Shown piece after piece: positions 5,756 to 60,800 of a stretch of DNA of 64,000 nucleotides. The stretch is from Tubulanus polymorphus (taxonomy: Eukaryota > Nemertea > Palaeonemertea > Tubulaniformes > Tubulanidae). The notes beneath the pieces are model-generated. The model saw nothing but the letters and a program-made list of their open reading frames with translations, ran no database searches and had not been told where the DNA came from. The translations under genes and the position numbers were made by a program. Each line of letters starts with the position of its first letter. Position 1 is the first letter of the stretch. The stretch is from positions 7,614,485 to 7,678,484 of the forward strand of contig NC_134027.1 in the NCBI RefSeq assembly GCF_964204645.1, written 5' to 3'.

Positions 5756-8700
5756 TTAGAAATGTATTAAACATTTGCGTATATACAACGCCAATTTTTT
5801 AAGAGTTTGGCAATTTGAGTTGAACAAATCATACAACTTTACGTTATTGGGGAATCTCCAATAACGCTCCGGGATATATCTAGCTCTGGATTCCTGGAAG
5901 TACGGGCAGACGAGTAAAAAGTGATATTCATCCCCCACCGCCACTAAATCACACTTTTGGCACAGCCTATTGGCACGGGCAATTCCACGCCACCGCCCAA
6001 CTTCCACCGGTAGCCTGTGAGCTGAGCATCTAAATCTACATAAAGTTAACCGGTCCCTAGGGGTTAATTCAGTTAGATACTTTTCCATTTCGAAACGGCA
6101 TTTGATTGTTAAATACGTAACAGCCATAGTGGAATCAGTAAGTTTTGCATGCCAGACTTGCATAAACTGATCCTGCAATCTCTGTTTAAGAATCAGACTC
6201 AAGTAATTCACGTTTGGAATATTTTGATTTTCCCAAATATATCCGAGCCCATTTCGGAGCAAAATGTTCTTCACAGAATCCATCCAAGAGTTAGCTTGAC
6301 CATCAATATAGCTATTATAAACACAACTGTAAACCTTTGACGATAATTTATCATCAGTTATTAATTTTGCCCAAAAATTTACAATTCTAAGCTGTACGTA
6401 AACTTCGAGAGGAAAACGACCCAGTTCTCCATAGACAAATGAGCTATTAGTAGATTTCTTTAACTTGAGTAAATATCTAAAAAATTTCAGCTGCACGCAC
6501 TCAAGAACTCGGAGATTTTCGTAACCCCAAATTTCACAACCAAATAATAGGATTGGTAATACCATGCTATCATATAACTTTAAACTAACATCAACGTCGA
6601 GTGAATATTCGCTAACCTTTTTTAAAACAGAGAACATAGCCCGCTGTGCTTGGTTTGCTAACGCTTTTCGGCACTGAGCAAAAGACCCGGTATGGGAGAA
6701 TAGTATACCCAAATACTTATAGTTATATACTAACTCCAACACTCGACCGTTTATATTAAACTCCGGAGGGTTTCGGAGTCTTCGTTTCGAGAATATCATT
6801 ACTTTTGTTTTTTCGCAATTTATTTGTAACTTCCAATCTTTGCAATAAACATGCAGGTTGTCAATCAATTTCTGAAGACCCTGTGGACTCTCGCTCATAA
6901 GTACTGTATCGTCTGCGTACATAAGGATCATCAATTTGACCCATGCATCATTACGCATGCGCAGATTTAGGGAGGGACAATTTTGAGCATCTAAATAGCC
7001 TTCCAGATCATTTAAAAATATTGAAAAGAGCACAGGGGACAAATTTTCTCCCTGTCTGACACCCATAAAACTTTCAAAGGCATCTGTTTTACTATCATTA
7101 GAAAATACACATGACTTGATGCCCTGGTACATGCTACATATTACATTTAGAACTTTGCCCGTAACACCACTATTGATCATCTTATGCCACAGAGCCTTTC
7201 TCCATATGCTATCAAAGGCACGTTTGTAATCTACAAAAATGCAGTAAAGCTTGCGATTACTATTCAAAAACATATCCACAAGTGACTTAAGGGAGTATAT
7301 ATGGTCCAGAATGCCGTGTTTTTGTCTGAAACCTGCTTGATTTTCCAGTAGTATATTGTTCGTCTCTAGGTAATTAGTTAGCCGGTTGTTGATGACACTA
7401 GTAAAAAGTTTGCCTACATTGCTCAACAAAGTCACGCCCCTATAGTTACTTGGGTCATCAGCACTACCCTTTTGTTTGAAAATAGGTATAATCATTCCGT
7501 TTAACCATGATTCGGGGATATTACCTGTATCAAGGACATTGTTAAAAAGACACATAAGTGTTGGTAGTAAACTCTCCTCGGCCGATTTTAAGAACTCGTT
7601 AGGGATTTTGTCCGTACCACAAGCCTTAAAGTTTTTTAATTTATTTATACTCTTTAATATTTCATCCCCGTTAATAGGTTGATTTAAAGGGGTTTGGTCA
7701 TAGTTATTGCCGTTAAAGTCTTCGACGTTATGAAGCCGTGGTTCACTTCCATCAAGCACAGGACGCTCGTTCATAGATTTAAAGTGATTTAGAAAATCAG
7801 CGCTTGAGACATTACACGTGTTATTGTGGTTCTTCTTGAAATAGTTCCAGAAGTTGTGAGGGTCAGATTTTGACAGTGAACGTATTTTCTTGTTGAAAAC
7901 CGTCTTCCTATCACTATTCCATTTGTGAATGGCGTTTTTGTATTTACGGAACGCACGGTTCATTATGTAGTGATTATTACGTGAGGGTAAAGATGAGTAT
8001 GTTCTTTTTGCACGACGATAATCCAACCTGGTGTTTCTAACGACTTCGTTTTGGGTAGCCTTGGCCGGTGGCCGAGGTTTCGATTTACGTTTGACAATTC
8101 GTTTGCCCATTACTTTAACGGCTGATTGTAACATAACAGCACAAAGCCGTTCATTGGCTTCGCTTGCGCTCAATGACCCATTCATCAGGTTTTCGTTTAT
8201 TTCAATAAGGACCGTTGAATTCCTCGAAATGTCTTGTGCGAATTGGTCTTTTTTATCTGGGTCCCAGTTCACTACCTCCTCCGGTTCGAAATTTTGAGAA
8301 CCAGTTACAACTGGCGCTGATGTCTTAAGTTGTAGATGCGTCACGATGGCGCTATGTACGTCGGAAAGTAACCGGTCGAATGCCATTACCTCCAGCCGCT
8401 TTACATAGTTTATAAGGTACGATGACGAAATCATGTAGTCGACAATATGTTCATTATCTCCTTTATGGCACGTAAAATCACCAACTGTTAAATCAGGGGC
8501 TATTCGACCATTCAGGATAATGATTGAATGGTTTTTACATAGTTCCACCAACCGTAAACCGTAGTTGTTAATAGAAAGATCCTTTGTTTTACGTCTGGTA
8601 ATATTGAGGGAATTTAATATTTGTACACAAGTATGGGTGTCTGCAAAAACCTCGTTTTCGAATTCTAGCCTTTGTGTTAAAAAGTCGTTTGGGTCACTAT

Positions 8701-9208
8701 AATCAAATAGGCTTCCAGTGTACGCATTAAAATCACCACAAATAAATAAGTGCGAATCATTAGCATTATAATTCTCTATTATTTCGAGATTCAGTTCGTC
8801 AAAACACTCACTTCCACCGTAACTGCTCGATTCGGGTGGAACGTAAACACATCCAATCTGGATATTTTTTTCAGATCCAGTTAGCTGCTTATGAACGCGC
8901 AGCCACAGAACTAATTTACTTTCGCTGTCAATAGGGCATACATGTGGAGCTAAGTTCAGTCTAACGGCGATCGCTATGCCTCCTGAACGGAACGATGATA
9001 TTTTTTTCCGGTTCTTAAGGAACATTTTGTATCCTAAACTTTTAAAAAACTGCTTTATCCACTGTTCGTCCGTATCATCGAGTTTAGTTTCAGTTAGCGC
9101 GATAACATCGTTTTCCAGAATTAGCGCCTGAAATTCTGGGACATGTAATTTGCTCCTCAATCCACCAACGTTTAGTGATAGAATGGATAATTTTGCCTCA
9201 GTGTCCCG
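5756..9208 (-). CDS. LINE ORF2: endonuclease-reverse transcriptase
   Basis: About 1150 residues without a stop. The N-terminal APE-type endonuclease shows a LNVGGL strand near the start, the acidic TETK motif, GDFN, and a terminal SDVHS in place of the usual SDH. The central reverse transcriptase has VDYKRAFDSIW, GVRQGENLSP and the catalytic MYADD box (tyrosine codon at 6919, about residue 750-765). The C terminus has a C-x2-C...H...C cluster (CQKCDL through VCPYF) that may bind nucleic acid. It would nick the target and copy the element RNA there. The reading frame directly follows the ORF1 stop in the same frame, and no AUG precedes the conserved endonuclease start, so translation needs readthrough or re-initiation. 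The shorter form from 9160 begins at a TTG and would lack the first conserved strand. Confidence 0.9.
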   Translation of the reverse strand, partial: RDTEAKLSILSLNVGGLRSKLHVPEFQALILENDVIALTETKLDDTDEQWIKQFFKSLGYKMFLKNRKKISSFRSGGIAIAVRLNLAPHVCPIDSESKLVLWLRVHKQLTGSEKNIQIGCVYVPPESSSYGGSECFDELNLEIIENYNANDSHLFICGDFNAYTGSLFDYSDPNDFLTQRLEFENEVFADTHTCVQILNSLNITRRKTKDLSINNYGLRLVELCKNHSIIILNGRIAPDLTVGDFTCHKGDNEHIVDYMISSSYLINYVKRLEVMAFDRLLSDVHSAIVTHLQLKTSAPVVTGSQNFEPEEVVNWDPDKKDQFAQDISRNSTVLIEINENLMNGSLSASEANERLCAVMLQSAVKVMGKRIVKRKSKPRPPAKATQNEVVRNTRLDYRRAKRTYSSLPSRNNHYIMNRAFRKYKNAIHKWNSDRKTVFNKKIRSLSKSDPHNFWNYFKKNHNNTCNVSSADFLNHFKSMNERPVLDGSEPRLHNVEDFNGNNYDQTPLNQPINGDEILKSINKLKNFKACGTDKIPNEFLKSAEESLLPTLMCLFNNVLDTGNIPESWLNGMIIPIFKQKGSADDPSNYRGVTLLSNVGKLFTSVINNRLTNYLETNNILLENQAGFRQKHGILDHIYSLKSLVDMFLNSNRKLYCIFVDYKRAFDSIWRKALWHKMINSGVTGKVLNVICSMYQGIKSCVFSNDSKTDAFESFMGVRQGENLSPVLFSIFLNDLEGYLDAQNCPSLNLRMRNDAWVKLMILMYADDTVLMSESPQGLQKLIDNLHVYCKDWKLQINCEKTKVMIFSKRRLRNPPEFNINGRVLELVYNYKYLGILFSHTGSFAQCRKALANQAQRAMFSVLKKVSEYSLDVDVSLKLYDSMVLPILLFGCEIWGYENLRVLECVQLKFFRYLLKLKKSTNSSFVYGELGRFPLEVYVQLRIVNFWAKLITDDKLSSKVYSCVYNSYIDGQANSWMDSVKNILLRNGLGYIWENQNIPNVNYLSLILKQRLQDQFMQVWHAKLTDSTMAVTYLTIKCRFEMEKYLTELTPRDRLTLCRFRCSAHRLPVEVGRWRGIARANRLCQKCDLVAVGDEYHFLLVCPYFQESRARYIPERYWRFPNNVKLYDLFNSNCQTLKKLALYIRKCLIHF

Positions 9209-9987
9209 TTATGCCTGGACCGGATCGCAATCTAGTGTCATGCGCGCGTTCCTCAGCACCTCGCCTAGATCGCCTAGGCCATCATCCGTTGAGGTAACCG
9301 ATGAAGAAACCCGTGCCCGTTTCGAATCAGGCTTTGATGACGCATGTTTTCTATTGTGATTCGGTTTCCCCGCGAATTTTGAATAAGATACGGTTTTTGG
9401 CACTGTATCATGTTTGTCAAAGCTCTCTGGGCTTGGTCCGGCACGAAACGAAAAAACCCCTTCGTCACGTGTGGCGTCTTGATTTTCGGCTACCGTGTTC
9501 CCCTGCGGCGGGGCCACTTTCATTGGTTTTTTCTTACGTCTAAATTCGCTACCATCACCCTTATACGGTTTTTTGTCTACGAAAAGGTTACCCTGCCAGT
9601 TGAAGAACGCTTTGTGACCAGCTTTGACGGCCGCTTTTTTAATTGGGAGCAATTCGCGGATTTTATTCGAAGTTTCTGGGCTGTAATCCTCGCTGAGTGA
9701 CAGTCCCGTACCTTTAAATTTATACGCGTTCCGCCTGACTCTCTCCCGGTCAGCGTAATGTACGAACCGAGCAATAACACCGCGTGGACTGTTGTTGCTT
9801 TCCGCACGTTTATATAATCTATGGACTCGCTGGAATTTAATATATTCTGCGTCCTCTACTCCCAGGATTTCTTTTATTATTTTCTTAACTGAAGATTCAC
9901 AGATCTCATCCTCACTTTCCTGGACACCATAAAATATGAGATTCTCACGCCGTCCGTAATTCTCTTGGGAATTTATTCTCGCCGCAT
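9209..9987 (-). pseudogene. LINE ORF1 (RNA-binding protein), 5' end damaged
   Basis: The frame ending at the UAA at 9209-9211 can be followed upstream to about 9987. It shows the pattern of L1-type ORF1 proteins: YGRRENLIFYGV, then a helical acidic stretch, then SPRGVIARFVHYADRERV and KGTGLSLSEDY, and a lysine-rich C-terminal tail. ORF1 proteins of this kind bind element RNA and form trimers. At a run of seven A's (about 9987-9993) the frame is lost. A plausible coiled-coil continuation lies one base out of frame upstream, so the 5' part is frameshifted or eroded. Confidence 0.6.
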
Positions 9988-10100
9988 TTTTTTGCGCTTA
10001 TTGTGTATAAGATCAATAATTAGCAACCTTCCACGGATACGAAGCGGCCTAAGTTTACATCCTACCATAATTTTCTCTAAACTCTCAGCATTATATCAAG

Positions 10101-22935: not shown

Positions 22936-24259
22936 GCCACATAAAGCTAAGTTGATTTATTATTCTTGGGTTATCATCGTGGCCTGACGGATAGCTGCTA
23001 GGGAGATTGGGGATGCCAGTGAAGTTCGGCATCTCCGTCCAATATCTAACAGCAAATGACGTTATTGGTTCCAAAATTTCCAATTGTGTACTTCGATTTT
23101 TGCAACAAATTCTGTAAATTTGATCACCGATCACACAACTATATCTGTACTTCGATTTCCGAATTCAAAATCAAACCGTTTCACTCTCAGCAGGTGTAAT
23201 GGGTTTGTAGTAACCGTCTACACCAAACACTGGAGTGTTTAAGATCTCCTAAGGCCTCCCCCTGAGTCCTCTCTCCTTTAACCCCCAATAATCATCATAC
23301 TTCTGTCGTCTCTGATTTTTCTATTTCCAGGTCTGCTCGAACTCCGTCAACCCGACGTCGAGGCACCGCCGAATTTCCAATTAAGAAGATTCTGTAAACT
23401 CGATCGCCGATCACACAACTATATCTGTACTTCGATTTCCGATTTAAAAACTTAGACAAAATTCTCTTTTACCTTGTAAACTTTCGGAACTACATGAAAA
23501 AAAGACCAAAGAATTGTATAAATTAGACAAAATTATTCAACCTTGTAAACTTTCGGACTAATTTACATGAAGAAGACCAAATATTGTAAAATTATCTTCA
23601 ACCTTGTGATATAGTTATTGCCAAAATCTCGACGGGGCCGATTCAAATCAAACTCAAACAACCAACCAACTTAAGAGATCCTCGCCGATAATGAACCCAG
23701 CAATCGTAAAAGGTAACTTGATATACATGAAATTATTACAATTAATTCTGGATGAAATATTTGTATTTACAGGATATCTTTGCTTTCTCATTTCAGAATC
23801 CCACCTTGTAGTACCGGACCATGTGTCACACCAGGGCTAGGTGGGGATATTTACAGAACCTAGTGGATGACAGCAATAAAATCAGGACCACTGTTGATAC
23901 AATCCTACCGTATATGAAACTGCCGCGCTTGAGATCAACAACTCGTTTAAAATCTGCCGATTGGAGAACAGCGCACAAAAAAGGCCAATTTGAATCCAAT
24001 TCAACAACCGACCAACTTACGAGATACCGATAATGAACCCAGCAATCATAGAAGGTAACTTGATATACATGAAATTATCTTATATAATCTTATATAATGA
24101 TACTGAATTGTTGTACCGACTGCTCCGTCGTTACTGGATGTATCGCCCTGAAAATTTGCCCGGTGGTAGATCTAGTCTTTTATCGCTTGGTTTCCATGGA
24201 AAATGTATTTTTGAATTTATGTGGTGGGCCATTTACCAAATTTTTGTAGTCTCTCCTAC

Positions 24260-25459
24260 TGTTCACAGAGGGCGCATGGGTCTGCTGGCATTCGCCAAAG
24301 CAAAAAAATATCTATATGACAAGGCAATGAGAGCAATGTTCTCGGTAATACAAAAAGGCAGACGCTCGAAGCTCCCGATAGATGTTTTGCTGAAACTATT
24401 CGATATGTGCGTCGCACCCGTTGCGTTATATGGTTGTGAGATATGGGGCTTTGAAAGCCTCGACTTATTAGAGAGTCTGCACTCTACGTTTTGCAAAATT
24501 ATTATGAAAGTGTCAAAATATTCGCACAACCTGCAGGTATTAGCTGAACTTGGGCGGTACCCCATGAGTATCGAGGTAAAACGGAGGATGGTAAACTTTT
24601 GGCTTAAAACTGTTACCGGCAAAGAATCAAAACTTAATGCAATCCTGTACCGTATATCCCTCAATCTGTATGTACGCGAAAAACACAAATCCCCTTGGTT
24701 ATTGTATATAAAGAAAATATTTGACGACATTGGCTTATCTTACATATGGTTACAGCAATACACGGAAAATTATAAAACGCTCTCCAAGTACGTGAAACAA
24801 GTCCTCCGTGACCAACACGTACAAGAAATGCTTCAAAAAGTGAATGACGATCAGCAGTATGTTAATTTCAAACTATATAAGAACGATGTTAGGCTTGAAA
24901 AATATATAACTCAACTTGACGGAAGTCTTGTGCATAGCTTATTCGAATTCAGAATTGGTTCCTATTTATTACCGGTAAATAATCGATCGAACGCTCATAT
25001 AGACCGAAGTGAAAGACTGTGCCCTGCCTGTAACACCGTAGGAGATGAGCTTCACTTCATTTATGACTGCACTTTGCTAAGTGATCTGCGTGATAATTCC
25101 ATCCATTTAAGTATGTCCAGAAACTTGGAAATATTAAGGAATCCTACCCCACAATTAGCTAAATTTATCCAGTTAGGTTTAAGTTTATACAAATCCCTCC
25201 AGTGAATTGTGTATATACGTGTGATATATCTTGCTGTATATAATTCAATCTCTGTACTTGCTTTGTTTGTAAATAGTTTTATTACTGAAAGTTTGATATT
25301 AAATTTTGTTAATTCCTATTTTGTTTTGTATATATGTATATAATTCTGTTCGTGTTTTGTAAATTTTTATATACCATATTTTGTATTCAATCTTGCCTCC
25401 ACGTACCATTCTTATGGTTGGAGTGAAATAAATATCTTATCTTATCTTATCTTATCTTA
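24260..25459 (+). mobile_element. 5'-truncated LINE
   Basis: Protein similarity to the C-terminal third of the 5756-9208 ORF2 begins near 24276 and runs to the stop at 25205. After that come a 3' UTR and the terminus GGAGTGAAATAAATAT followed by about five CTTAT repeats (25433-25459). 5' truncation and a microsatellite tail are the usual signature of target-primed insertion. It sits inside an intron-like segment of copy C. Confidence 0.85.
24276..25205 (+). pseudogene. LINE ORF2 C-terminal remnant
   Basis: About 310 codons remain open. They correspond to the region after the reverse-transcriptase YADD box: KAMRAMFSVIQKG, APVALYGCEIWGFE (compare LPILLFGCEIWGYE in the other LINE), AELGRYPM, and a final CPACNTVGDELHFIYDC cluster of the C-x2-C...H...C type. 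Endonuclease and catalytic reverse-transcriptase motifs are absent, so it cannot move itself. The frame is open further upstream to 24033, but that part is host intron-like sequence. Confidence 0.85.
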
Positions 25460-26530
25460 TAGCCACTGACTTGAGACAGCCACTGTTGTCACTGTTGTCA
25501 CAGTTGATACAGTACGAGTTACTGCTGAGCCGGGTCATGAAACAGTTTTTCAAATGTAACAGATGATAGTAAATGAAAAAGCAATGAACCCGCTTACTTT
25601 TACCTACGAGGCACTGCCGCTGGTTCAAAGCAATACACTCACTGAAGTCAGCAGACTGTATTGGGCGTGTTCAAATCTTCTGAGTACTACGTAAAATTCA
25701 TACATTGTGAAATGATCATATCGGTACTTCACATATTTATTTCTATCTATTGTTCTGTTACCTTGGGCCTCCCAGGGGCGGAAGAAATTTTCAGTATGTG
25801 ATTAAGGGCCCCAGTATCCTCGGGCACAGGTCAAGTCGGTCCCGAGATTCCGCATGTTCTCTTTGGGCACGGGTGATCACACGAACATAATAGGCCACTT
25901 TAAATGCTCCTACTCAATTCACTTGCAATGAATAATAAGTTGGAAAGTTCTACGTTTAAAAATCACCCGTGGTTTCCACGGGCTTTCTACTAGTTTCGAT
26001 TAATTCTGAATGAAATATTTGTATCTACAGGATATCTTTGTTCTCTCATTACAGCTTAATCCTATCTATATGAAACTGCCGTGTTTGAGATCAACAACTT
26101 GTTTAAAATCTGCCGATAAGAAAACAGTGCAAATAAGAAGCATTTAATTATCAAAATCTACGCACCGGTCCACATTACTGATCTGATATATATATCCGGC
26201 ATCTTAACCTACCGTCATTAGTCTGAAACAGTGAGGAACTAATGCTACTACTACAACCAATTATTGGGGGTCGAAACTAATGTCCAATAATACACTATAA
26301 GACAACCAAGGAGAAAACCTGCAGATTCAGCTGCCACTGAGACTGAAATGATCTGACGACAGCCCCCAAAAACACCATAGCATTGCATTCACCAACCAAT
26401 GACAAAGAGAAGATCTGAGCCGATACTGAACATAGCAATCGTTAAAGGTAACTTGATTCGAAACGAGTCGTCGTGAAGTACAGACGTGTTTTCGGCGCTC
26501 TCCGTGAATACAATACCAGCACAGTAAACA

Positions 26531-27580
26531 ATGGATCTTCAACAAGCTAGAACCTTCCGATACAACAACATGATGGCAAAAGACTTTAAAAACTTCTTGC
26601 TCGTACCAAAGATTCGAGTACAATACAGCAAATTGGACATAAACCAGATTTGTGAAATTCTACACAACGACCGAACATCGAGTGAATGCATCGAAAAAGT
26701 TATTGATTTTAACCCGTACAATGTCGGTGTATTCTGTGGTTCATCCGACAAATACGATATTTTGAAGAAACATACAATCAGTCACAGAGGAGCAACAGTA
26801 AGATTTAGATCAGCGCTTGAAACTCCAACAATTTTAAGAATAGAAGGTGTCCCGACCGACTGCCCACATGATGTAGTTGACAGCATCATAAAACGATATG
26901 GAAACATTCTGACAGGGTCTTATCACCCAACACTTGGCAAAACAAACTTCCGTAACGGTGAGAAGCGAGTCCTGGAAGTAGTTATTTCCTCGCCGATCCC
27001 GAGGAACATTGCTTTAGAATCAAAACTTTATGGACTTTTACTCATCCGAGTATACTACAACGGTCAGCCAGATCACTGCGCGATTTGCGGAGAATTCAAC
27101 CACACGTGGGTTGAATGCCAGGTTACGTGTTCGCATCCGACACACACCCCGGATCGCTGCAGACAAATTCATCATCGACAGAATATGGCTTCGCAAAGTA
27201 TAAGGAAGACCAATCCAACACCAGCAGAAGCAGCAAGCACTACCAGTAAAGTTCCAGATACCAGGGTTGTGGAAACTGTCGCGGCCAAGACCAACTCGAA
27301 ACCCGAGGAAACCAGGAAGAGACCGTCCTCTCCTACTGAGCTGCCGCAGACACCGAAGAAGTCTCAGAGGATCCCTACATCTACCACTGACAATGAGGCT
27401 CCGGTAGCCACGACAAAAAAACCACAGACGCCAAACAAAGACGATGAACCCGCGATGGATGATGGAAGCGTGGCTACGACCGAACCCGCGAAAACGAGTC
27501 CACCACAAGTGAATCGGACACAGAAGAAAACTCAACCCAAAACCGGGACAGCAAAGCCAAAAAACAAGAGAACGACCTAA
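26531..27580 (+). CDS. LINE ORF1: zinc-knuckle RNA-binding protein
   Basis: 349 residues. The middle (about 95-175) has the look of an RRM-like fold (ILRIEGVPTDCPHDVVDSI). A CCHC zinc knuckle CAICGEFNHTWVEC follows at about residue 179, in the C-x2-C-x4-H-x4-C pattern. A cysteine/histidine-rich tail lies behind it, and the last 130 residues are basic and rich in Thr, Pro, Lys and Ser. ORF1 proteins of this type coat element RNA and chaperone reverse transcription. The frame is intact, and the start ATG follows ACAGTAAACA with a purine at -3. Confidence 0.85.
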   Translation: MDLQQARTFRYNNMMAKDFKNFLLVPKIRVQYSKLDINQICEILHNDRTSSECIEKVIDFNPYNVGVFCGSSDKYDILKKHTISHRGATVRFRSALETPTILRIEGVPTDCPHDVVDSIIKRYGNILTGSYHPTLGKTNFRNGEKRVLEVVISSPIPRNIALESKLYGLLLIRVYYNGQPDHCAICGEFNHTWVECQVTCSHPTHTPDRCRQIHHRQNMASQSIRKTNPTPAEAASTTSKVPDTRVVETVAAKTNSKPEETRKRPSSPTELPQTPKKSQRIPTSTTDNEAPVATTKKPQTPNKDDEPAMDDGSVATTEPAKTSPPQVNRTQKKTQPKTGTAKPKNKRTT

Positions 27581-27621
27581 GGTGATGTATATTTTCCACT
27601 TATTATGTAGGTACTGAAAAC

Positions 27622-30600
27622 ATGGCGAATACATTAGGACGTATTAGATTATTATCACTCAATTGCAATGGCTTAGCCTACTCTAACTCTCGAACTATAA
27701 GCATTTTTGAAAAACTTAAGCTGCACGATATCTTCTTACTACAAGAAACCCATTTATCTAGTGACTACGAAATTCAAAAGAAATTTAAACCCTTATCGAG
27801 GAATTTTGAGATATTATCTAACTTTACGAATGAGAGAAAATGTGGAGTAACTATTGGCATTAGGAGATCTTTAAACTATTCAATTTTAAGTAACTCAACG
27901 GACACACAAGGCAGGTTAATGGCTTTGAAAATCTCTATATCTGGTCAAATTTATAACATTGTCAATATTTACGCCCCGAATAAAGAGCGCGATAGGAAAA
28001 ATTTTATAAACAATATCAGTAATTATCTCAACCTCAATCAAAATGAACATACAATAATAGCTGGAGATTTTAATTGTATAGAGAGTCCTTTAGATCGAGA
28101 ATCAACATCTGCCAATTCGTCGAGTATAAGAAGTGGTTCAGAACAATTAGCAAACTTATGTCAACAATACAGATTAGCAGACGCCTACAGACTTAAAAAT
28201 CCAGACACACCAGCATACTCTAGAGTAGCAACACGAAATAACAATGTAATTAAAACAAGAATAGATCGATTTTATGTATCAGACACTCTACAGCCAGACA
28301 TAGAGCATGTGAAACATGTCAACTCTATTCATTCCGATCACAAGATCGTCGAATTAGTAATTAACTCCTCTCAAGGTAAACGTGGCAAGGGATACTGGCA
28401 TCTCAACAAAGAACTACTGCAGAACCCTAATTACATCACTATGATAACAGACTTTTGGACACAATGGCAAAATCACAAACTATTCTACGACTCAATTATT
28501 GAATGGTGGGAAGAGGGCAAAATTCAAATAAAAACCAGATCAATAAAATTTGCTTCAGAACTCAGAAAAATCAAAAACAATCTTAAGAAATCTTTAGAAT
28601 CTGAATTATTCATTCTCGAAAAACTTTCTGATTTAGGGGTAAACACTAACCAAAATCAAATTGAATACCTTACCAAACGTATTCGCGACTTCGAAATTGA
28701 AAAAGCAAAAAGTGCAATGATTAGATCAAAGATCGAGTGGAGAGTATTCGGAGAGAAGACAAGTACTTTCTTTGCAAGTTATGAAAAGCAACGCGCTAAA
28801 GCGAATCACATCAGAACTCTCAAAAACGATTTAGGTGAAATTAAAACTGGTCAAAAAGACATTGAAAAAGTTCAACTTAATTTCTATAAACACCTATATA
28901 GAAAAGAAGAAATCGATTTGGAAACCCAAAATATATTCCTGGCTAATCTACCTCAAATCTCTAATCAAAAGAAACTTCAGCATGACTCCGAAATAGATAT
29001 CAACGAATTAACAAATTCGGTCAAATCTTTTCAAAATAATAAATCTCCCGGTATAGACGGTCTACCTATTGAATTTTATAGAACATTTTGGTATACTCTC
29101 CGAGATGACTTTCTGCAGTTAGTACACGCGTGTATACAAGAAAAGAGACTTTCTAAATCAATGCAAACCGGCATTATATCATTAATTCATAAGAAAAATG
29201 ACAAAACAGACTTAAAAAATTGGAGACCAATCTCATTACTATGTACAGATTACAAAATATTCACAAAAGTTCTCGCTAACAGACTAATCAACTGTCTAAC
29301 AGACATAATTCACCCTGACCAGACATGTAGCGTGAAGGGACGTCGAATCCAAGACAACGGTCATATAATTAGAGACTTAATTGATTACGTTAATAATGAT
29401 AATTTAGAAGCATTTTTAGTAACCATTGATCAAATGAAAGCTTTCGACCGCGTCGACTGGCAGTATATGTTTAAAACTTTAGAATCTTTCGGTTTTGGAG
29501 AAAATCTAATTAAATATATCAAAACTTGTTATTCAAATCCAAAATCCAGAATTAAAAGTAATGGCTTCTTAACTAAACCGTTCACTTTAGAAAGAGGCGT
29601 AAGACAGGGATGTCCCATGAGCGCAATACTCTACATAATAGCAGCAGAACCACTAGCAATTAAAATACGTGAAAACAACAACATTAAAGGAGTAAAACTA
29701 CCGGACGACACAGAAATTAAAATCAAGCAATACGCAGATGACACTACATTATGTCTCACTGACTTAGAGTCTTTAGACCAAGTTTTTACAACGTTAACCC
29801 TTTTCGAACGAGCGTCAGGTGCAAAAGTTAATAAAGATAAAACTGAATGTATGTGGATTGGATCCTGGAAAAATAGAAACGATAAACCTTTAGACTTAAA
29901 TTGGAAGAAATCAATGAAAATTTATGGTATTCATTTTGGCAATGAAAATACTGATGATTTAAACTGGAATCCAAAAGTTAATAAAATTCAAAATATAATA
30001 AACCTCTGGCGCCAAACTAAACTATCTTTACACGGCAAAAAGGTCGTCATAAACTCATTTATATTACCGCTTTTATGGTACACTTCCGAAATATTTCCAG
30101 TCCCGGACAAGTATATCAAAATCTTTGAACCAAAAATCGTCAATTTCCTATGGGACAATGGAAAACGACTTGTCGGCAAAAACATACTACACAAAAAAAT
30201 CGAACACGGAGGCCTCGACATACACAACATAAAATACAGACAACAAACACAGGCAATTACAACGATCATTAACCACGCTCTAAAACCTACACACTGGAAA
30301 CCACTAATTAACTACAATCTGCAAAAATACATTGGCCCTGGCTGGAATATGTCAAACATCATTCACAATGAGCTACCTAAAAAAACAATTTCAAACGACT
30401 ACTACAGACATTTATTAAAAGCATGGACAGTTTTTCAACAACATCTGACTTCGACTGAAACCATTACTGAAATTTTGCAGAAACCTATTTTTGGCAATCC
30501 AAAAATTAAGCTCAACAGGAAAACTGATTTCACACAGTACATACAACACGGTATAACCAATTTGCAACATTTATTTGATAATCGTGGCAATTATAAACCA

Positions 30601-31437
30601 CTTAATGAAACTCCGTTAACAAATAGATTAAAACACACACGTATACACAATGCGATACCGCAACATTGGAAACTAATTATATCTGACCAAAATTTAGATC
30701 CTGGCGAGTTACCGAAAATCTACGTCCAGTTTGATAACATAAGTTGTGCTGTAGGAAAAATTTCATCATCTCAAATTTATAGAATTTTATTATTAAAAAA
30801 TCTCCATCAAATCACGCCAATTGGACAAACAAAAATTACTGAAATGCTAAATATGGATCTGAATTGGCCGGAAATTTGGAATGAAGTTTATAATAAAGAT
30901 ATTGATAAACGGTTTAGTGATATTCATTGGAAATTACTACATAATACTCTTGCAACAGCTTCAAAATTAGTACTTTGGAAAATAAAAACTGATCCAAATT
31001 GTAAAATTTGCGGACGCGCGGCAACAAATGACCATGTAGTATACTCATGCACAGAAGCACAACAATTATATTCACGCATACAACCAATCTTTGAACGCAT
31101 AATAGACACACCTATACGAATCACTCGAGACATCGTCTACACAGGAATTACCAAAACAATAGAAAGAGACTTTTTCAAACGCACACTTGCGAACTATCTT
31201 TTATTTCTCGCACAATTCATTTTGTACAAGAATCATTACAATCTAGAACAGGGCTCTGGTCGCATCAACACTATAATTTATTTCAAAAACGCACTTATAG
31301 ATCGCATAAACCAAGAAATAATACTGCAACGAAATCTTCATATTTGGAGTCTTAACAATATATTTATAAACCTAGACGTAAACGGACTAAATACAGTAAA
31401 CAGAATCACAATTGACACTATCGATGTAGTCTATTAA
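27622..31437 (+). CDS. LINE ORF2: endonuclease-reverse transcriptase (Tx1/L1 type)
   Basis: 1271 residues with no break. The APE endonuclease shows LLSLNCNGL, LLQETHL, IYAPN, AGDFNC, RIDRFYVS and HSDHKIV, covering the catalytic Asn, Glu, Asp and His positions. The reverse transcriptase shows KSPGIDGLPIEFY, WRPISLL, DQMKAFDRVDW, GVRQGCPMSAILY and the QYADD box (tyrosine at 29731, about residue 704). A CKICGRAATNDHVVYSC knuckle lies near residue 1130. The motif wording follows the L1/Tx1 group rather than the CR1-like LINEs elsewhere in the window. All visible catalytic residues are present, so activity is possible. The Tx1 assignment is by pattern, not by a tree. Confidence 0.93.
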   Translation: MANTLGRIRLLSLNCNGLAYSNSRTISIFEKLKLHDIFLLQETHLSSDYEIQKKFKPLSRNFEILSNFTNERKCGVTIGIRRSLNYSILSNSTDTQGRLMALKISISGQIYNIVNIYAPNKERDRKNFINNISNYLNLNQNEHTIIAGDFNCIESPLDRESTSANSSSIRSGSEQLANLCQQYRLADAYRLKNPDTPAYSRVATRNNNVIKTRIDRFYVSDTLQPDIEHVKHVNSIHSDHKIVELVINSSQGKRGKGYWHLNKELLQNPNYITMITDFWTQWQNHKLFYDSIIEWWEEGKIQIKTRSIKFASELRKIKNNLKKSLESELFILEKLSDLGVNTNQNQIEYLTKRIRDFEIEKAKSAMIRSKIEWRVFGEKTSTFFASYEKQRAKANHIRTLKNDLGEIKTGQKDIEKVQLNFYKHLYRKEEIDLETQNIFLANLPQISNQKKLQHDSEIDINELTNSVKSFQNNKSPGIDGLPIEFYRTFWYTLRDDFLQLVHACIQEKRLSKSMQTGIISLIHKKNDKTDLKNWRPISLLCTDYKIFTKVLANRLINCLTDIIHPDQTCSVKGRRIQDNGHIIRDLIDYVNNDNLEAFLVTIDQMKAFDRVDWQYMFKTLESFGFGENLIKYIKTCYSNPKSRIKSNGFLTKPFTLERGVRQGCPMSAILYIIAAEPLAIKIRENNNIKGVKLPDDTEIKIKQYADDTTLCLTDLESLDQVFTTLTLFERASGAKVNKDKTECMWIGSWKNRNDKPLDLNWKKSMKIYGIHFGNENTDDLNWNPKVNKIQNIINLWRQTKLSLHGKKVVINSFILPLLWYTSEIFPVPDKYIKIFEPKIVNFLWDNGKRLVGKNILHKKIEHGGLDIHNIKYRQQTQAITTIINHALKPTHWKPLINYNLQKYIGPGWNMSNIIHNELPKKTISNDYYRHLLKAWTVFQQHLTSTETITEILQKPIFGNPKIKLNRKTDFTQYIQHGITNLQHLFDNRGNYKPLNETPLTNRLKHTRIHNAIPQHWKLIISDQNLDPGELPKIYVQFDNISCAVGKISSSQIYRILLLKNLHQITPIGQTKITEMLNMDLNWPEIWNEVYNKDIDKRFSDIHWKLLHNTLATASKLVLWKIKTDPNCKICGRAATNDHVVYSCTEAQQLYSRIQPIFERIIDTPIRITRDIVYTGITKTIERDFFKRTLANYLLFLAQFILYKNHYNLEQGSGRINTIIYFKNALIDRINQEIILQRNLHIWSLNNIFINLDVNGLNTVNRITIDTIDVVY

Positions 31438-52179: not shown

Positions 52180-53798
52180 TGCAGCTTCTATATTCAACGG
52201 AGAAAAAAACCACTTCGACGAAATGTTTATCTGGAAAACTTTTTGTTTTATTGGTAGATTTATCGGCGATGATCTGAGTCTAGAGCAACAGGCGACTTTA
52301 TTCTCTCCGGGTGTGACGTACGCTACGCACGCGCACCCACGCAAACGACGAGTCGAGAGGGCTATCTTGTTATTCCTGTAGGCCTATGGGTTTTTCATTT
52401 CATAGGCCTACGTATCATCTGATTGTTCATGTTTATTCTGTACAGCGATAGGCCAATGTCTACTTTATGTACCGGGTACCGTAACCGTACGTTTTGTGAA
52501 GTTGGATATATTCGTAATGGTTATACATCATTAAAATATAGATTTTCGTTTAAACATTGGAATTTCATTCAAATCTCAATAGTAATCATTTTGTCTGATG
52601 ACATTATTATTTCGCTCACGTGAGAATCATCGGTTTTCATTCACGTGAATGAACTAATTTGCAAATAGATATCATGAAAATAAACTGGAGTGGCGAAAGA
52701 TACAAACAGCGACGAATGAACACCTCTGGGAGTACCGCGATCGACGTCACAGCGAACCCACGTCTCAATCTGCAATCCCTGACTAATTGAATAATTAGAG
52801 GTGAACATATATAGGACCCAGGTGATTTAATTGAATGAAAGTATCGTTGTATTTATACATCTATCGAAGCCATTTAATTTCCAAACCACCACATTTCGTC
52901 CAGTGCGGTATTTTTTAGATCCTGGGCCCTTTGGTTTTGCACCTTTATCCTATAATATAGCAAATGTGAACAATTCGCCTCTCTGCATTCACTACGCGAT
53001 GTCCATCGACGAGACTGAAAAAATGTAATATTCTTTAATGTGAATATTGAATAAATTTTGCCTTTAAACGTTTAAATTTGTAAGTAGCTGGTTTTTCTAT
53101 ATACTTCATGAAATCAATTGGTGAATTTTGAGTTATTTACTTCTGAAACCAATTTCCTTCGATATCCGTCGGTTTGAATGATTGTATGATTCAAACGTCA
53201 GTCTTTGAATTTTTCATGAAAGAAGAGAGCAAGAAAACTAAGTTGAAAGTTTTTATATTGATTGATATTTGATTTTATTCGTCAAAGTATTTATAACCGG
53301 TACGTACGAACGATTTGATTAATTACATGTACAAATTAAACGTACGAAATAACGACGGGTGTGATATGTTCAAATCTGTTTATTTTGAAACGCTGAACGA
53401 AGACGTTGGACATCGAATGACCCCTTAAATAACGCTTTAGTAGTAAATCAAACATGAAACCATTTTTGTAAATGTTACATTTTTGTTTTGACAGCGTCAT
53501 AATAGATATAAAAGTATTTGAAACCATTAGGGCCCAGCTAACGCTAACGCTAGCGGAGCCAGCATGTGATGACAATCTGGCGAAAATGCACTGTAATATA
53601 GGAAAGTAAGGACTCGAACCTAGATAATGTCATTGACAAGCCAAGTATTTCGGGTATGGAATATATCCTTTGGTTCGATCAATCAAATCAATCAGATAAA
53701 TGTTTATTGATGATGGAGATTATCTTATTTTGACAACAACCTGCGTGGAACTATCGGTCCCCATCGGTCATCACATCGAATATTTTGATATTTCACAG
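52180..53798. other. Divergent intergenic region
   Basis: It separates the CAP gene (minus) from the SET gene (plus), so both promoters should lie here. The first coding exon of the SET gene must also lie here or be untranslated, but I could not identify it. No other gene is seen. Confidence 0.4.
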
Positions 53799-55469
53799 TG
53801 AAAAGATCTGAAACAAACAGTTCCCCATTTAAATCGAGAAAATATATCCAACACGTCCTAAAAGTTACAGCGAAAGAAAGTAAAACTCCTATTATCTCCA
53901 GTAGAACGACAGACTGTTCTGTAGTGTCAGGGTCAAGCGTGACACATGTTGCACCCACGACTTCCAAACTTTTCATTCTATCAAAATCGATGAATACAGA
54001 GACTTGCCCTAATCCTACATTAGATCAAGGTATTGAATCTGTAGGTGTCGGCATAGATGCGCAAGCTACTGACAGTGACACAATCAACAGTTTTAGGGTA
54101 ATAGTAGTACAATTTGTGTATTTGATATTTTAAAAAACATGATCTATGTTCAAATGCTTATCTTTCGACACTAGCTGCGTATCCCTAGCTATTATTCTTA
54201 TATGGGTATGTTCACTGGAGATAGGGCTACAATTTACATCGTTATTGTGATATCAATAGTCATTAAGTGATATTTGCTTTAAATGATTGGTATTTATTTT
54301 AGGTGTCGAAACCAAATAACACTGAGTCTTATTAATGATTTAACTTTATAGCTCACTGGTGACGAGTAAAAGACTTAAATAGTTAAAGTTGATAGTGTTG
54401 ACTATATTTAGGTTGTAGGTCAGTCTCAATGAACTGAGTAATGACTGGCAGGATAATGCAGTTGGCCTTTGATGTGGCTGATATCAATCCTGTGACATGA
54501 AATTAGTTCCAACTGAATAACTTATATTGATTCAATGACAGTCAATTATGTTCTATATAGATATACATAGAATAGGCCTACATTGGCGAGATTGGTAATA
54601 TGTTCATAAAAGGTATTGGTCTGGTATTTGAAAATCAAGGGATATACAAGGTGTTATAAGTTAAAAGATTTTTAAGATGTTGAATTGATATTTATAAAAT
54701 TTGCTTCAATACTACATTTACAATTGATCCTTAATTTCAGTATTGCTGTAAAAACGTTCCTGGAGCTGGATGCGATATCGAATTATTTCAAGAGCAACAT
54801 ATCGGATGTGCGTGTGAAACTTGCGTACCGGAACGCTGCCCTTGTATTCAAAGATTCGGTGAAACGTATCGCGATTTTCGGCTAATCGATGCGAATTTCA
54901 CTTCGCGACCGATTCTCGAATGTTCTCGCGACTGTAACTGTACGAAATCCTGTCGTAATCGACTTGTACAACATCGTCTGCAACGAAAATTGAAAGTCGT
55001 CGAAACTCATCGCAAAGGATACGGCGTAATCGCAGAGGAGAAAATCGGCAAAAATTGTTTCGTGTGCGAGTATGCCGGTGAAGTAATTAGTGAATCTGAA
55101 GCTCGCTTGCGATGGAAGCTGCAGTCTTGTGACGATTCTAATTATATTTTTGTATTAAAAGAGCACACGTCGACCGCGATAAACACGTTTATCGTCGATC
55201 CGAAAAACATCGGAAACGTCGGTCGATTTTTGAATCATTCTTGCGATCCAAATTTGTTCATGCTTCCGGTTAGAATTGACAATAGCATTCCTCATTTGGC
55301 GTTATTCGCGAAGCGCGATATCGAAATTGGTGAAGAATTGTGTTACGATTATTCGGGGGGTGTATCAACCAGTCAGGAAAATATAAGTGAAATAAAAAAC
55401 CGAAAAGCCTGCTATTGCAAGTCATTGGGTTGTAAAGGATATATTCCTTACGATTCTTTATTAAACTGA
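53799..55469 (+). CDS. SETMAR: SETMAR-type SET-domain histone methyltransferase (5' end incomplete)
   Basis: Exon 53799-54097 joins 54741-55469 in frame (SFR then [14 protein letters not shown]). The second exon is a full pre-SET/SET/post-SET unit. Pre-SET cysteines are seen in [14 protein letters not shown] and [18 protein letters not shown]. The SET core has [20 protein letters not shown] (cofactor-binding NHSC) and ELCYDYS. Post-SET is CYCKSLGC. The wording follows the SET part of vertebrate SETMAR and the SUV39 group. No mariner transposase is attached, as expected outside anthropoid primates. It probably methylates histone lysine in the nucleus. The first exon begins at a TTTCACAG acceptor, preceded by an in-frame stop, so a further 5' exon must supply the ATG. 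The stop lies two bases before the SUMF1 ATG. Confidence 0.85.
54098..54740 (+). other. Intron of the SET gene
   Basis: GTAATAG donor at 54098 and TTAATTTCAG acceptor ending at 54740. AT-rich, with nothing else recognised. Confidence 0.75.
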
Positions 55470-55471
55470 AA

Positions 55472-57502
55472 ATGGATTCGAAATCGATGTCGCGAGTTTT
55501 TCTGCTGTCGTTACTACTCGTATTGTTAACGGTAAACTTTGCATCATTTGAAGAAAGTCTCGATGGTAGTTGTGGAAATAAGAAAGACGGTGCTGAACGG
55601 TTAAAAGGTTCAGATACTTCATGCGGCTGTAAATCTAATCGGAAAACAAATAAAGAAATCGATGATGATCATAGTGATGTAACAGTTGTTACGGATGAGG
55701 GTCAAGATGAGCTGAATGATGAGCTACAGCCTTCTTATACAGATAACATGGTTTATATACAAGGCGGTCAGTTTACGATGGGTCTCAATGATCCGATATT
55801 AATAGCCGATGGAGAGTACCCAGCTAGGGGTGTGACGGTTTCTTCGTTTTATATGGATATGCACGAAGTCAGTAATCAGGACTTTGAGCGTTTTGTAAAT
55901 GCTACATCTTACAAAACAGAGGTATGTTTACAGGCTTTGATTTCATGTGGTAGTTCTATTAATCTCTAATTCTTTGAAGCCTATTTCAGGCTGAAAGTTT
56001 TGGTGATTCATTTGTCCTACAATCATTGCTCAGTGAACAAACATTAAAAAGTATCACACAAGCTGTAAGTCATCATCACTTTCGATTAATCTAATAACGC
56101 GTACTATACTCGTGTATACCGGAAATAAGATGATACAATTTAACAGGTGGCCGCAGCACCATGGTGGTTACCAGTTAAAGGCGCATCCTGGAAGCATCCA
56201 GAAGGATTGGATACACATATAAAAGATAGGTATGGTAATCATTTTCATGTTAGTTTGAATTGATAGAAAATAACGGGATCTATAAGCTGACTGGCTTATT
56301 ATTTCAGAATGGATCATCCAGTTGTTCATGTATCTTGGAACGATGCTGTTAAATATTGTAATTGGTTGAATAAACGCCTTCCTACAGAAGCGGAGTGGGA
56401 ATATACATGTCAGGGTGGGAGAAAAAATAGGTAGGTAGCTGCTACTCGCTGTATAAACTAAGGTTCCAGGGACCCCATGCCCACTTGATATGCATATGAC
56501 AATCTGACAATCTCACTATTCTGCCCCCTGGCGAACAAATGCATTCACAATTGATTGCGGTTACAAAATATGCATAGGTACCAATATATATATATGGCAA
56601 TGTTATTCTGCTTTCAACACAAACATAAAATCCAGTGACAATAAAAAGAAATTTAAAAAGGTTTTTTTCATGAGACTAAAGATTGCCTCTAATTGGCTAA
56701 TTGAAAAACCCTTCTGATATGTTCTGTTGTATGTATTTGGCAGGTTATATCCATGGGGAAATAAGGAAATGCCAAAGGGTAAACATTACATGAACATTTG
56801 GCAGGGGAAATTTCCTGCTGAAAATAGCAAAGAAGATGGTTACATCAGCACAGCTCCTGTAAGTACATACACAGTGTCCACATTTTTGTGTGGTGCCAAT
56901 ATTTTGATTATCCATACTTAATAGATTTTTTTTATTTTAATGTAGTAAAATTTTTCCCTCATGCCGGGATAAGCAGTTGGCCTACACAGTGTGCCTATTC
57001 AAGTTTTAACTTATTAACTTGCAGGTTACGGAATTTCCAGCACAAAATAAATATGGCATGAAAAATATAGTTGGTAATGTTTGGGAGTGGACAGCAGATT
57101 GGTGGCAAGTGAATCATTCATCAGCAAAATCTAAAAATCCAGTAAGTACTCGAGAGAAAAGAATTACATATTGCCTTGCATTAGATCGTGTGACGCTAAG
57201 TTTCATATTTCTTGTAGACTGGTGCCATTAGTGGAAAGGATAAAGTGAAGAAAGGAGGGTCATATATGTGCCATAAGGTATGTTTTGTCATTAATTGGGT
57301 ACAAAGCCTCCTAATTTTGAAGATTTGGTTCGTACAAACAAATTTTCAAACATTTTATTGTATATTCCAGGATACCTGTTATCGTTACCGTTGTGCTGCA
57401 CGAAGTCAAAATACCCCGGACAGTTCCGCTGGAAATTTAGGGTTTAGATGCGCTAGTTCTGAACTACCCAAATATCTCCAACGCAACAATGACGAACTTT
57501 GA
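55472..57502 (+). CDS. SUMF1: Formylglycine-generating enzyme
   Basis: Eight exons join in frame to 384 residues: 55472-55921, 55990-56064, 56147-56229, 56308-56430, 56744-56858, 57025-57141, 57218-57277, 57371-57502. The human enzyme is 374 residues. It starts with a signal peptide ([19 protein letters not shown]) and acts in the endoplasmic reticulum, converting a cysteine of nascent sulfatases to formylglycine. The FGE-sulfatase fold is evident: [69 protein letters not shown], and the C-terminal block [20 protein letters not shown], which holds both copper-binding active-site cysteines. Introns are short (68-313 bases). Intron 4 (56431-56743) holds a fragment of the 154-bp repeat family. 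The ATG is two bases after the SET-gene stop, so its 5' UTR must overlap that gene. Confidence 0.97.
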
Positions 57503-57588
57503 TACAGTGCGCTATATGTGTCATAAAAGATGAAAATATGAATTAAATTTTTCTACAAATCTTGAGAACTTATGTCTTTAGAAAACAT

Positions 57589-57594
57589 AATAAA
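57589..57594 (+). terminator. Polyadenylation signal of SUMF1
   Basis: AATAAA lies 87 bases after the SUMF1 stop and 255 bases before the end of the convergent CXXC1 coding region. Confidence 0.6.
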
Positions 57595-57848
57595 AACAAC
57601 ATTTTTAGTAATGTATTTTTCATAGTTTTTGAAATGACTGCCATTTGTCTCTTAGGTGCAGGTGAAGCAGATCTGGATGGAAACCAATGTCCTTTTTGAG
57701 AACGTTGGAAAATGCCAAAGAAAAGCCCAAAAATCGACTTTATAAAAGGATTTATTTACACTCGTATAGATATGAACAACTAACGACATACTAACAACAT
57801 TTGCGTGTCAAACGAATTTCAAATCAAATTGATATTTTCGAAAAGAAT

Positions 57849-60800
57849 TCATATGCTAATACTTTCGGGAATCTTGATTGGATTAAGCGGATCATGATCT
57901 ATGCTTTGATTTAGTACTAAGCCGAGTACACCAGCTCGGTTAGCCATTGCCATACGTATATTCCTCTCTTGTTCGAATAACTCGTCTAATTTGATCCACT
58001 GAAAATAGACAAACAATCGTGTAACAAAGTAACAAGAATGAGTGCTTCAGTTCACGCGCTCCTCGTTTCACTAAACCTAATTGACTCTCAGTGGAGTTGG
58101 CTATTTTTGGAGTTATAATTGGCCACTAATGACTACGAGGTCTCTCAATCCGAGAAGACTAAAGATTCAACCAATATATTATTGGGCTAGTAATACCGGT
58201 AATTAAGACTATCATTTTGAGCAGTAAATAATTTATTTACCTGTCTGACTCGTTCCATATCAATATCAGCTCTTCGCAATTTCTCCCAACAATAATGCCG
58301 ACCGCATTTTCTCTTCGGTGTCCGACAGAATTCACCAGTTTCCTCGAATACATTCATTACTAATGGACATCCGCACACCTCATCTTCACGTACCTGCGAA
58401 GAAAACAAGAGATGAATTTCATAAAAAATTTTAACTCCTCGAATTTTGAAGAAATCCCATAATTCTCGCACATTCACTACATAAGAACTTCAAAGAATGT
58501 TTTTTACCTTAGGTTCCTTGGAATGTTCAGGACATAACACTTTGAGACGTTTACAGTAGGTTTTCTGTTGTGCATTGTAATAATCACAAAACATCGAATT
58601 GCCTTCAATTCGTGTTTTGTAAATCGAGCCAAATGACGTTTGAGATTCATACTGCAAGAAAAAACAAGATTTCACATAATATAGATACCACTTCGGACGA
58701 GGCAGAGAACGACAAAAGAAATGAGATGTTGCAATATCCTCCTAAACCAATTCTCAAATTATTTCAATTACTTTCAATCTTAACATTATTGCCGTATTGG
58801 AATACCCTAAATATTAACTCACCTTAGCAAAACACTTTTCCATGTGTTTTAATGCCCCTTTTTGATTAATTTCATGACCGCAGGTGACGCAATAAATACT
58901 TAATTCAGCTTCATCTGGTTCATCGCCATTCTATAAACAAACCAATATAAAATCATCAGTAAGAGCTAAGTTATCAGGAATCTATTTCTTCTTGTGAAAC
59001 ATAATCTAGAACATTACATCGGGTTCTGGTGTAATAGTTGAATGTTTAGCACGTTCGATTAGAGCGTCTAAATTTTGGTGTTTCATATCTAATTCTCCTA
59101 TTTTCTGTCTGGCATCGAGTTGCAGTTTGCGAATTTTTTCGAGCTCCTTTTTATTATTTTCTTCTGCCAAACAAGCAGTACTGTTCCAGTTTTGAATTCG
59201 TGGAGGTAAGATTTCATAAATGCGACTGCAATGATCAGGAAATAAATATGAATGACAACCGGTTGATACACTTTTTGTTGACTGACTGGATTAAACATTA
59301 GAATCACCGACTTACTTTGTAGCTAATTTCATGCCACACTCATCTGAACAATATTTTGATCCTTTTCGCGCGACATTGATACAACCCGGCCCGTAACATT
59401 GTTTCTCTTCTTCTTCGTCTTCGAAAAATGATCGATCCAATTCTTCATAATCAATGTCTTTACGATTAGATAAATGACGTGCTTTCGGTCTTGACTGAAA
59501 ACATCAAAAATACAATACGCGAAAAGAATGCTTTTCTATAGAATTTAAGTACGGTAGATTTTCGATCGAAACAGAAATCATTCTATACTGACTACTTTGG
59601 TTTTTCTGGATCTGTGAGGTTTAGATGATCGTTTTCTTGGACTCTTTTTGGCGTTGTCCGATAGCGCAGTAGACGACCATTGTCCTCCGTACGATTCCAT
59701 CGATATATCAAGTAATACATCATCAGTGCTTTGTTCATCTACATCTATTATTCTGCAAGAACCATCAAAAGATATTCAGAATACATGTAGTAGTTGTAAA
59801 AGAATCAATTACACACACACGGTATCCAGTACCCCGTTCATGAAAATAATGGAGACACCGAAGTTGTTCTTGAGCATAAAAACCTACCCAGGAGGTTTGT
59901 AATCACTGACTGATTCAGAATCAGATGCAGAGGATAATCCCAATGATTTCTCCTTCTTAGATTTCGATGAAATTTTGTGTCCTGATAGAAGTAAGCCCTG
60001 CAAAGAAAAATATCGCCTGGTTAGCAAAAATGCCATACAGTTGACTAGATCAAAATACAATTTCAGCAGCAGTTACTCGATTACCGGTATAAGGAGTGTG
60101 AAAGGATAAGAAAACATACACGTGTTCATCCAACTACACACAAAATGATTTGATTTTTCACTTGGAAATGAAAAGGAAGAACTCATTTTACCCAAGCCCT
60201 ACATTTCTTGAACCGAAAAAGTGAAGAATAGTTTCAACAGCTGAACAGACAGGAAACCCTTCTAAACTGTCTATTGAACACCTCTTAGTTTACACACATT
60301 AGTAAGAAGTTATAGGTTTAATAACAGTCTCACAAACAAGTTATTGTCTTTATGTTAAATTTTTGTGCTACCAATTCCCAAACAAAATTGATGATAGAAC
60401 GAAGAACCAATAAACAATAACATCTAACTTGATAAGCCGGACGATCAATATCAAACTCGTGAGAGCAAAGAATTTACTGAGACACTTTGTTTTAGGTTCC
60501 TTTGTTCATTCATACATCAATTATAATCAAAATATGAAGTCTCATTATAATAAACTAGGGGTCCAGGGACACCATGCCCACTTGGGAAGTGGTTTCAAAT
60601 GCTCAACAATCTAACAATTTCAATATTCAACGCCCCCTGGTGACCATTTACAGAAACCAATGACCTTGAAACTCACCACAATCATAGAACATGTCAGAAG
60701 CTACGATTTTGTAATTGATTGTGATAACAAAATATGCCTCGTTACCAATTTAATATGGAAATACTAAGTCATTCTACTATTCAACGCCCCCTGGTGACCA

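Follow-up and report, generated by a model that had tools for sequence, protein, structure and literature searches.

A SETMAR-type SET gene and SUMF1 separated by two nucleotides in Tubulanus polymorphus, with a possible SUMF1 promoter inside the SET coding exon

Two conserved genes packed end to start

Analysis of a 64,000-nucleotide stretch of Tubulanus polymorphus DNA (contig NC_134027.1, positions 7,614,485 to 7,678,484; hereafter the window) showed that two unrelated conserved animal genes, one for a SETMAR-type SET-domain protein and the other SUMF1, are packed end to start on the same strand. This packing is real. Judged from the sequence, we lean towards the view that the two are transcribed as separate units that overlap, the promoter of SUMF1 lying within the last SET coding exon. 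The shift in CpG content across the pair exceeds that in every control gene that could be scored, and the end of the SET exon is free of out-of-frame ATGs. The features of the locus are as follows.

53990-54097, plus strand: coding part of SET exon 1 (model), whose open frame continues in phase into exon 2
54741-55469, plus strand: SET exon 2, closing with TGA at 55467-55469; Pfam SET, best PDB match SETMAR 3bo5
55460-55465, plus strand: ATTAAA, possible poly(A) signal of the SET mRNA within the last SET codons (inferred)
55470-55471, plus strand: AA, the entire stop-to-start gap, read directly from the letters
54741-55696, no strand: CpG-rich stretch, proposed site of the SUMF1 promoter (SET exon 2 and the initial 225 bp of SUMF1 exon 1)
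55115-55471, plus strand: stretch without out-of-frame ATG, proposed SUMF1 5′ leader; the only ATG in it, at 55260, is a Met codon in the SET frame
55472-55921, plus strand: SUMF1 exon 1, beginning with what looks by eye like a signal peptide; its ATG has A at −3 and G at +4
55990-56064, 56147-56229 and 56308-56430, plus strand: SUMF1 exons 2-4 (model)
56744-56858, 57025-57141, 57218-57277 and 57371-57502, plus strand: SUMF1 exons 5-8 (model)
57589-57594, plus strand: AATAAA, likely SUMF1 poly(A) signal (inferred)

The SET model encodes 278 aa. Its two exons are joined at AGG/GTAATA ... CAG/TAT with the phase kept, the putative start codon lies in exon 1, and the frame of exon 2 is open from 54735 to 55469. 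The protein contains a Pfam SET domain (E 1e-24) and, among SET proteins of solved structure, matched SETMAR 3bo5 best (E 3.5e-64; runner-up SUV39H2, 6.8e-35); no Pfam pre-SET match was found in it at E 0.001. Residues SFRY of exon 1 align to PFQY of 3bo5. At the other end, the alignment reaches IPYDS, three residues short of the stop and near the end of the 3bo5 chain, which makes the stop look like a natural one. The fusion of SETMAR with mariner is primate-specific, and no fused mariner transposase was found in the SET open reading frame (ORF), which stops at 55469. On these sequence matches we class the gene as SETMAR-type rather than as a transposase-bearing SETMAR. A CpG-rich non-coding stretch at 52900-53788, with an observed/expected (o/e) CpG ratio of 1.42 overall and 2.18 in 53200-53499, is a candidate SET promoter.

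The SUMF1 model comprises eight exons with GT..AG introns and encodes 384 aa. Its frame is open from 55436, where a stop 36 nt upstream of the ATG closes it, which leaves two possible starts for the protein, 55472 and the in-frame ATG that follows it at 55487. The protein matched Pfam FGE-sulfatase (E 2e-82) and, in PDB, human SUMF1/FGE most closely (E 1.2e-137, against 3.9e-76 for SUMF2). Both cysteines in the stretch SYMCHKDTC have aligned counterparts in the human enzyme, and we take these residues to be catalytic. A second FGE-type gene occurs at 1650160-1651659 of contig C7, and its identity as SUMF2 is a guess.

The junction reads, on the plus strand, ...TTATTAAAC TGA AA ATG GATTCG..., the SET stop occupying 55467-55469 and the SUMF1 ATG 55472-55474. 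An initial annotation of the window had placed the stop, the AA and the start at these positions, and this was confirmed, with complete and conserved gene models on both sides. The two ORFs occupy different frames (55472 − 54741 = 731, not a multiple of 3), which rules out a simple read-through fusion. In the whole assembly searched (267.8 Mb, 77 contigs), the 321-bp junction matched once, on a 27.8-Mb contig, and SET exon 2 gave one full-length match and four weaker partial ones at 36-45% identity. Among prokaryote contigs (18 pattern matches) and viral contigs (5 pattern matches), no relative of the SET exon was confirmed. An error of assembly or gene modelling at the junction would have to leave both ORFs intact to the ends expected from homology, in a junction present once in the 27.8-Mb contig with no sign of a misjoin seen, and we regard its probability as next to negligible. 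Among the literature matches listed, no title or abstract opening described such a SETMAR/SUMF1 junction.

CpG shift and ATG-free tail at the end of the SET gene

CpG o/e rose from 0.42 in SET intron 1 to 2.01 in SET exon 2 and was 1.88 over the opening 225 bp of SUMF1 exon 1, before falling to 0.85 in the second half of that exon and 0.50 in SUMF1 exons 2-8. The o/e of TG/CA was 0.88 in SET exon 2, 0.93 in those 225 bp and 1.35 in SUMF1 exons 2-8. A fall in CpG with a rise in TG/CA is the footprint that would be expected of methylated sequence. The difference was also seen in codon choice, with NCG making up 16/40 NCN codons in SET exon 2 and 3/52 in SUMF1 exons 2-8 (Fisher p 7e-5). The drop does not coincide with the gene border but sits within SUMF1 exon 1, as would fit an unmethylated SUMF1 5′ end followed by a body methylated in the germ line. 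The largest shift in CpG o/e between exon groups was 1.14 for SET and SUMF1 together, and 0.81 for SUMF1 alone (exon 1 versus the rest).

The SET exon also ends in a stretch poor in ATGs. The 212 nt preceding the SUMF1 ATG contain none; when synonymous codons were permuted 5,000 times, this was so in 2.4% of cases. In SET exon 2, 355 nt separate the last out-of-frame ATG from the exon end (p 0.0019, 10,000 synonymous permutations; p 0.0036 when repeated with 5,000).

Both signals were compared with control genes. Twenty-three loci, CCT and proteasome genes among them, were fetched, and all were used for CpG in exon pieces. Shifts between exon groups were scored for the ten loci with at least three matches each, with at least 250 bp required on each side; eight of these could be split, and their maximum was 0.52. 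Because some control pieces held stops, that is, intron sequence, the comparison was repeated with stop-free pieces and at least 150 bp a side, giving a maximum of 0.63 (7/8 genes splittable). Pooled coding CpG o/e varied from ~0.8 to 1.7 per gene over the housekeeping control loci (L005-L027), as if methylated and unmethylated gene classes were both present, and the two most CpG-rich of those tested were also poor in out-of-frame ATGs.

Several observations weigh against an internal SUMF1 promoter. The CpG o/e of the second half of SET exon 2 (1.93) is not above that of the first half (2.05). Many non-first exon pieces of the CCT and proteasome genes reach 1.3-2.1, and since CpG-rich coding exons are so frequent, the richness of the SET exon was rejected as direct proof of a promoter and only the shift was retained. 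Across the 15 of 23 control loci whose first match began at profile position 22 or lower, the CpG peak at the 5′ end was modest: its mean was 1.33, compared with 0.88-1.05 further downstream. Bins of 300 bp reaching 1.9 or more occurred in 5/15 genes between −1200 and +300, and in 1/15 between +300 and +2400. The ATG-tail test was chosen after looking at the data. Its controls were drawn from six window ORFs (mostly retroelements) and eight control loci, two of which (L008 and L009) contained a stop and yielded no segment, leaving 50 overlapping segments: 43 from window ORFs and seven from six control loci. An ATG-poor tail at p < 0.05 was found in two of the 50, both among the seven housekeeping segments and both the most CpG-rich of these (L014, CpG o/e 1.90, p at the floor of 0.0017; L006, 1.65, p 0.017). 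Such tails may therefore simply accompany CpG-rich genes, and the ATG-free stretch was downgraded from strong evidence. No TATA motif was found in 55173-55471, and the initiator-like matches (TCAKTY at 55235 and 55292; YYANWYY at 55235, 55248 and 55461) were not compared with a chance rate. The ATTAAA at 55460 is a weak signal, being one of 21 signal-like hexamers in 54701-57700.

Proposed expression of the two genes

With an internal promoter for SUMF1, transcription of the SET gene would begin at a promoter of its own, located before 53990, and its transcript would end at or just past 55469, possibly by way of the ATTAAA at 55460 or of an alternative candidate, AATAAA at 55649, inside SUMF1 exon 1. 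The capped 5′ end of SUMF1 would probably fall at ~55263-55471, in which case the SUMF1 ATG, itself in good context, would be the first AUG met by scanning ribosomes.

The initial annotation had offered, without choosing among them, three routes to SUMF1 expression: a bicistronic mRNA, a transcript starting inside the SET exon, or splicing that replaces this exon. Of these, the internal start is the best supported, by the CpG shift and the ATG-free tail, though circumstantially. The accompanying statement that there is no room between the genes for a separate promoter needs correction, as a promoter can overlap coding sequence and requires no gap. Tandem genes with the downstream promoter inside the upstream gene are known from other genomes, and the present arrangement, while tightly packed, is mechanistically not new. 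If SUMF1 does start within the SET exon, one and the same sequence would have three roles at once: to encode protein, to act as promoter and to supply a 5′ leader. Since both proteins are conserved, the pair offers a clean test of how a promoter is maintained inside a neighbour's ORF, and also of whether the linkage shared with human persists through shared regulation.

Alternative routes to SUMF1 expression

A single bicistronic mRNA, begun at the SET promoter and ended by the poly(A) signal at 57589, could carry both ORFs, with SUMF1 translated by termination-reinitiation over the 2 nt. We consider this unlikely. Two ORFs on one strand with 2 nt between them resemble, in their spacing, stop-restart cases already known, for which the published account names influenza B BM2 and calicivirus VP2 as viral precedents and mouse embryonic GAD, with UGAUG, as a cellular one (PMC5972666). 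In yeast, bicistronic translation independent of cis elements is reported to be inducible under selection (PMC11952965), and the C. elegans SETMAR gene set-23 and ced-2 are described as genes that 'appear to be in an operon' (PMC12587179). However, reinitiation after long ORFs is presented as presumably very rare (PMC5972666), and the SET ORF has 278 codons. Reinitiation in calicivirus and influenza B uses a UGGGA-containing tether (PMC5972666); over the final 90 nt of that ORF (55380-55469), no UGGGA core (motif 1 of the termination upstream ribosome-binding site, TURBS) was found, the other TURBS motifs not being tested, and TGGG occurs once, at 55426. A single transcribed unit would also leave the CpG drop inside SUMF1 exon 1 unexplained. 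That an animal cellular mRNA should join a nuclear histone methyltransferase to the formylglycine-generating enzyme of the endoplasmic reticulum, with reinitiation in the absence of a UGGGA tether, appears distinctly improbable; if the two ORFs did share an mRNA, they would provide a rare example of reinitiation on a cellular transcript. Leaky scanning to SUMF1 was rejected as implausible, because nine ATGs in the SET coding exons, the SET start included, precede the SUMF1 ATG.

Splicing might supply SUMF1 with a 5′ end from elsewhere. No AG dinucleotide occurs at 55438-55471, so that no acceptor, cis or trans, adjoins the SUMF1 ATG. The earlier claim that the gap leaves no room for a trans-splice acceptor stands to that extent, but a candidate acceptor is present inside SET exon 2 (exon start 55377, score 4.9). 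Through this site, an mRNA whose first exon lies elsewhere than in the SET coding exon, such as one begun at the SET promoter, could be spliced to SUMF1, with alternative splicing picking one gene or the other. The score falls inside the range of the eight modelled acceptors (2.6-11.8, leave-one-out), and the site would yield a 95-nt leader free of ATGs. Scores at least as high were, however, found for 4.5% of the 6,643 AGs in the window, and the chance of at least one among the 11 AGs tested is 0.40; the preceding sequence (GGTGTATCAACCAGTCAG) is not pyrimidine-rich; and joining SET exon 1 to 55377 keeps the SET frame, which, by coordinate arithmetic, leaves SUMF1 behind an ORF of ~66 codons. 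A cis-spliced leader is rather improbable on this evidence. The same acceptor could serve a spliced-leader (SL) operon with SUMF1 as its downstream gene. Trans-splicing is reported as patchy among animals, spiralians included, and nearly half of genes are trans-spliced in the chaetognath P. gotoi (PMC12460157), so lineage alone is no bar. Against such an operon stand the missing AG next to the ATG, the Hox cluster of ~320 kb in this genome versus 2.4 Mb and 14 genes in P. gotoi (PMC12460157), and the annelid Dimorphilus, for which the available account gives neither spliced leaders nor operons, 'similar to other annelids' (PMC7854359). Within the window no Rfam family was matched, although a genome-wide search for SL RNA was not made. 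An SL operon is very improbable.

Linkage of SETMAR and SUMF1 in human

In human, SETMAR and SUMF1 lie on opposite strands, and ITPR1 is a neighbour of SUMF1. The initial annotation had proposed that the pairing may be ancient. The linkage may indeed be old, but an ancient bicistron finds no support in the human locus because of the opposite strands. The proximity of the two human genes at 3p26, which it had also put forward, is supported by the description of SETMAR as located in a SUMF1 intron (PMC8994322). In the present genome, the strongest PF08709 match, an exon on the contig of the window (C3) ~3.1 Mb away, resembles IP3 receptors; a match on C1 resembles ryanodine receptors, and another lies on C6. 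The SETMAR-SUMF1 linkage is probably ancestral, a lead drawn from two genomes, and the same-strand abutment within 2 nt need not be.

Other features of the window and genome

Exons of a CXXC1/CFP1-type gene (58187-59290, minus strand) converge on SUMF1. Pfam CpG_bind_C was found in three of six scanned minus-strand ORFs of 58187-60072 (best E 5.4e-29), and a gene for a CpG-binding protein thus lies near one for a histone methyltransferase. Long ORFs at 5756-9997 (minus strand) and 23994-31437 (plus strand) have, by eye, the look of LINE-type retroelements. Elsewhere in the assembly, a Hox cluster on contig C6 (5318228-5634747) contains ten homeobox matches, ordered on one strand over ~320 kb, which by their homeodomains and flanks resemble labial, Hox2, Hox3, Dfd, Scr, Lox5, Antp, Lox4, Lox2 and Post2; the Lox5-like homeodomain is followed by KLNGP. 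This set of genes suggests a spiralian animal. A search of the assembly for COX1 found no match. A Cpn60-family match with a 575-aa stop-free frame lies at 7097-8704 of the 110-kb contig C31, and could be a retrocopy or a contaminant.

Comparison with known systems

The human 3p26 locus differs from the present one in its opposite strands, whereas here the genes share a strand, lie 2 nt apart and show no mariner part before the SET stop. Physical linkage of the same two genes is common to both (PMC8994322). As in calicivirus VP1-VP2 and influenza B M1-BM2, stop and start codons fall within a few bases of each other; unlike these, the pair has no UGGGA core, consists of cellular genes with a 2-nt gap instead of an overlap, and is known here from the genes alone. 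Nematode operons are resolved by trans-splicing, and the locus differs from them in that no acceptor adjoins the SUMF1 ATG. In C. elegans ced-2/set-23, as described, a SETMAR-type gene likewise stands beside an unrelated gene in a proposed operon, but the partner is another one and set-23 is downstream, whereas the SET gene here is upstream (PMC12587179). With overlapping tandem units elsewhere, the pair shares a common strand and a practically absent intergenic space, because of which a downstream promoter must overlap the upstream coding sequence. It is set apart from them by an overlap that is putative here, a genome of 268 Mb and the unrelatedness of its two proteins.
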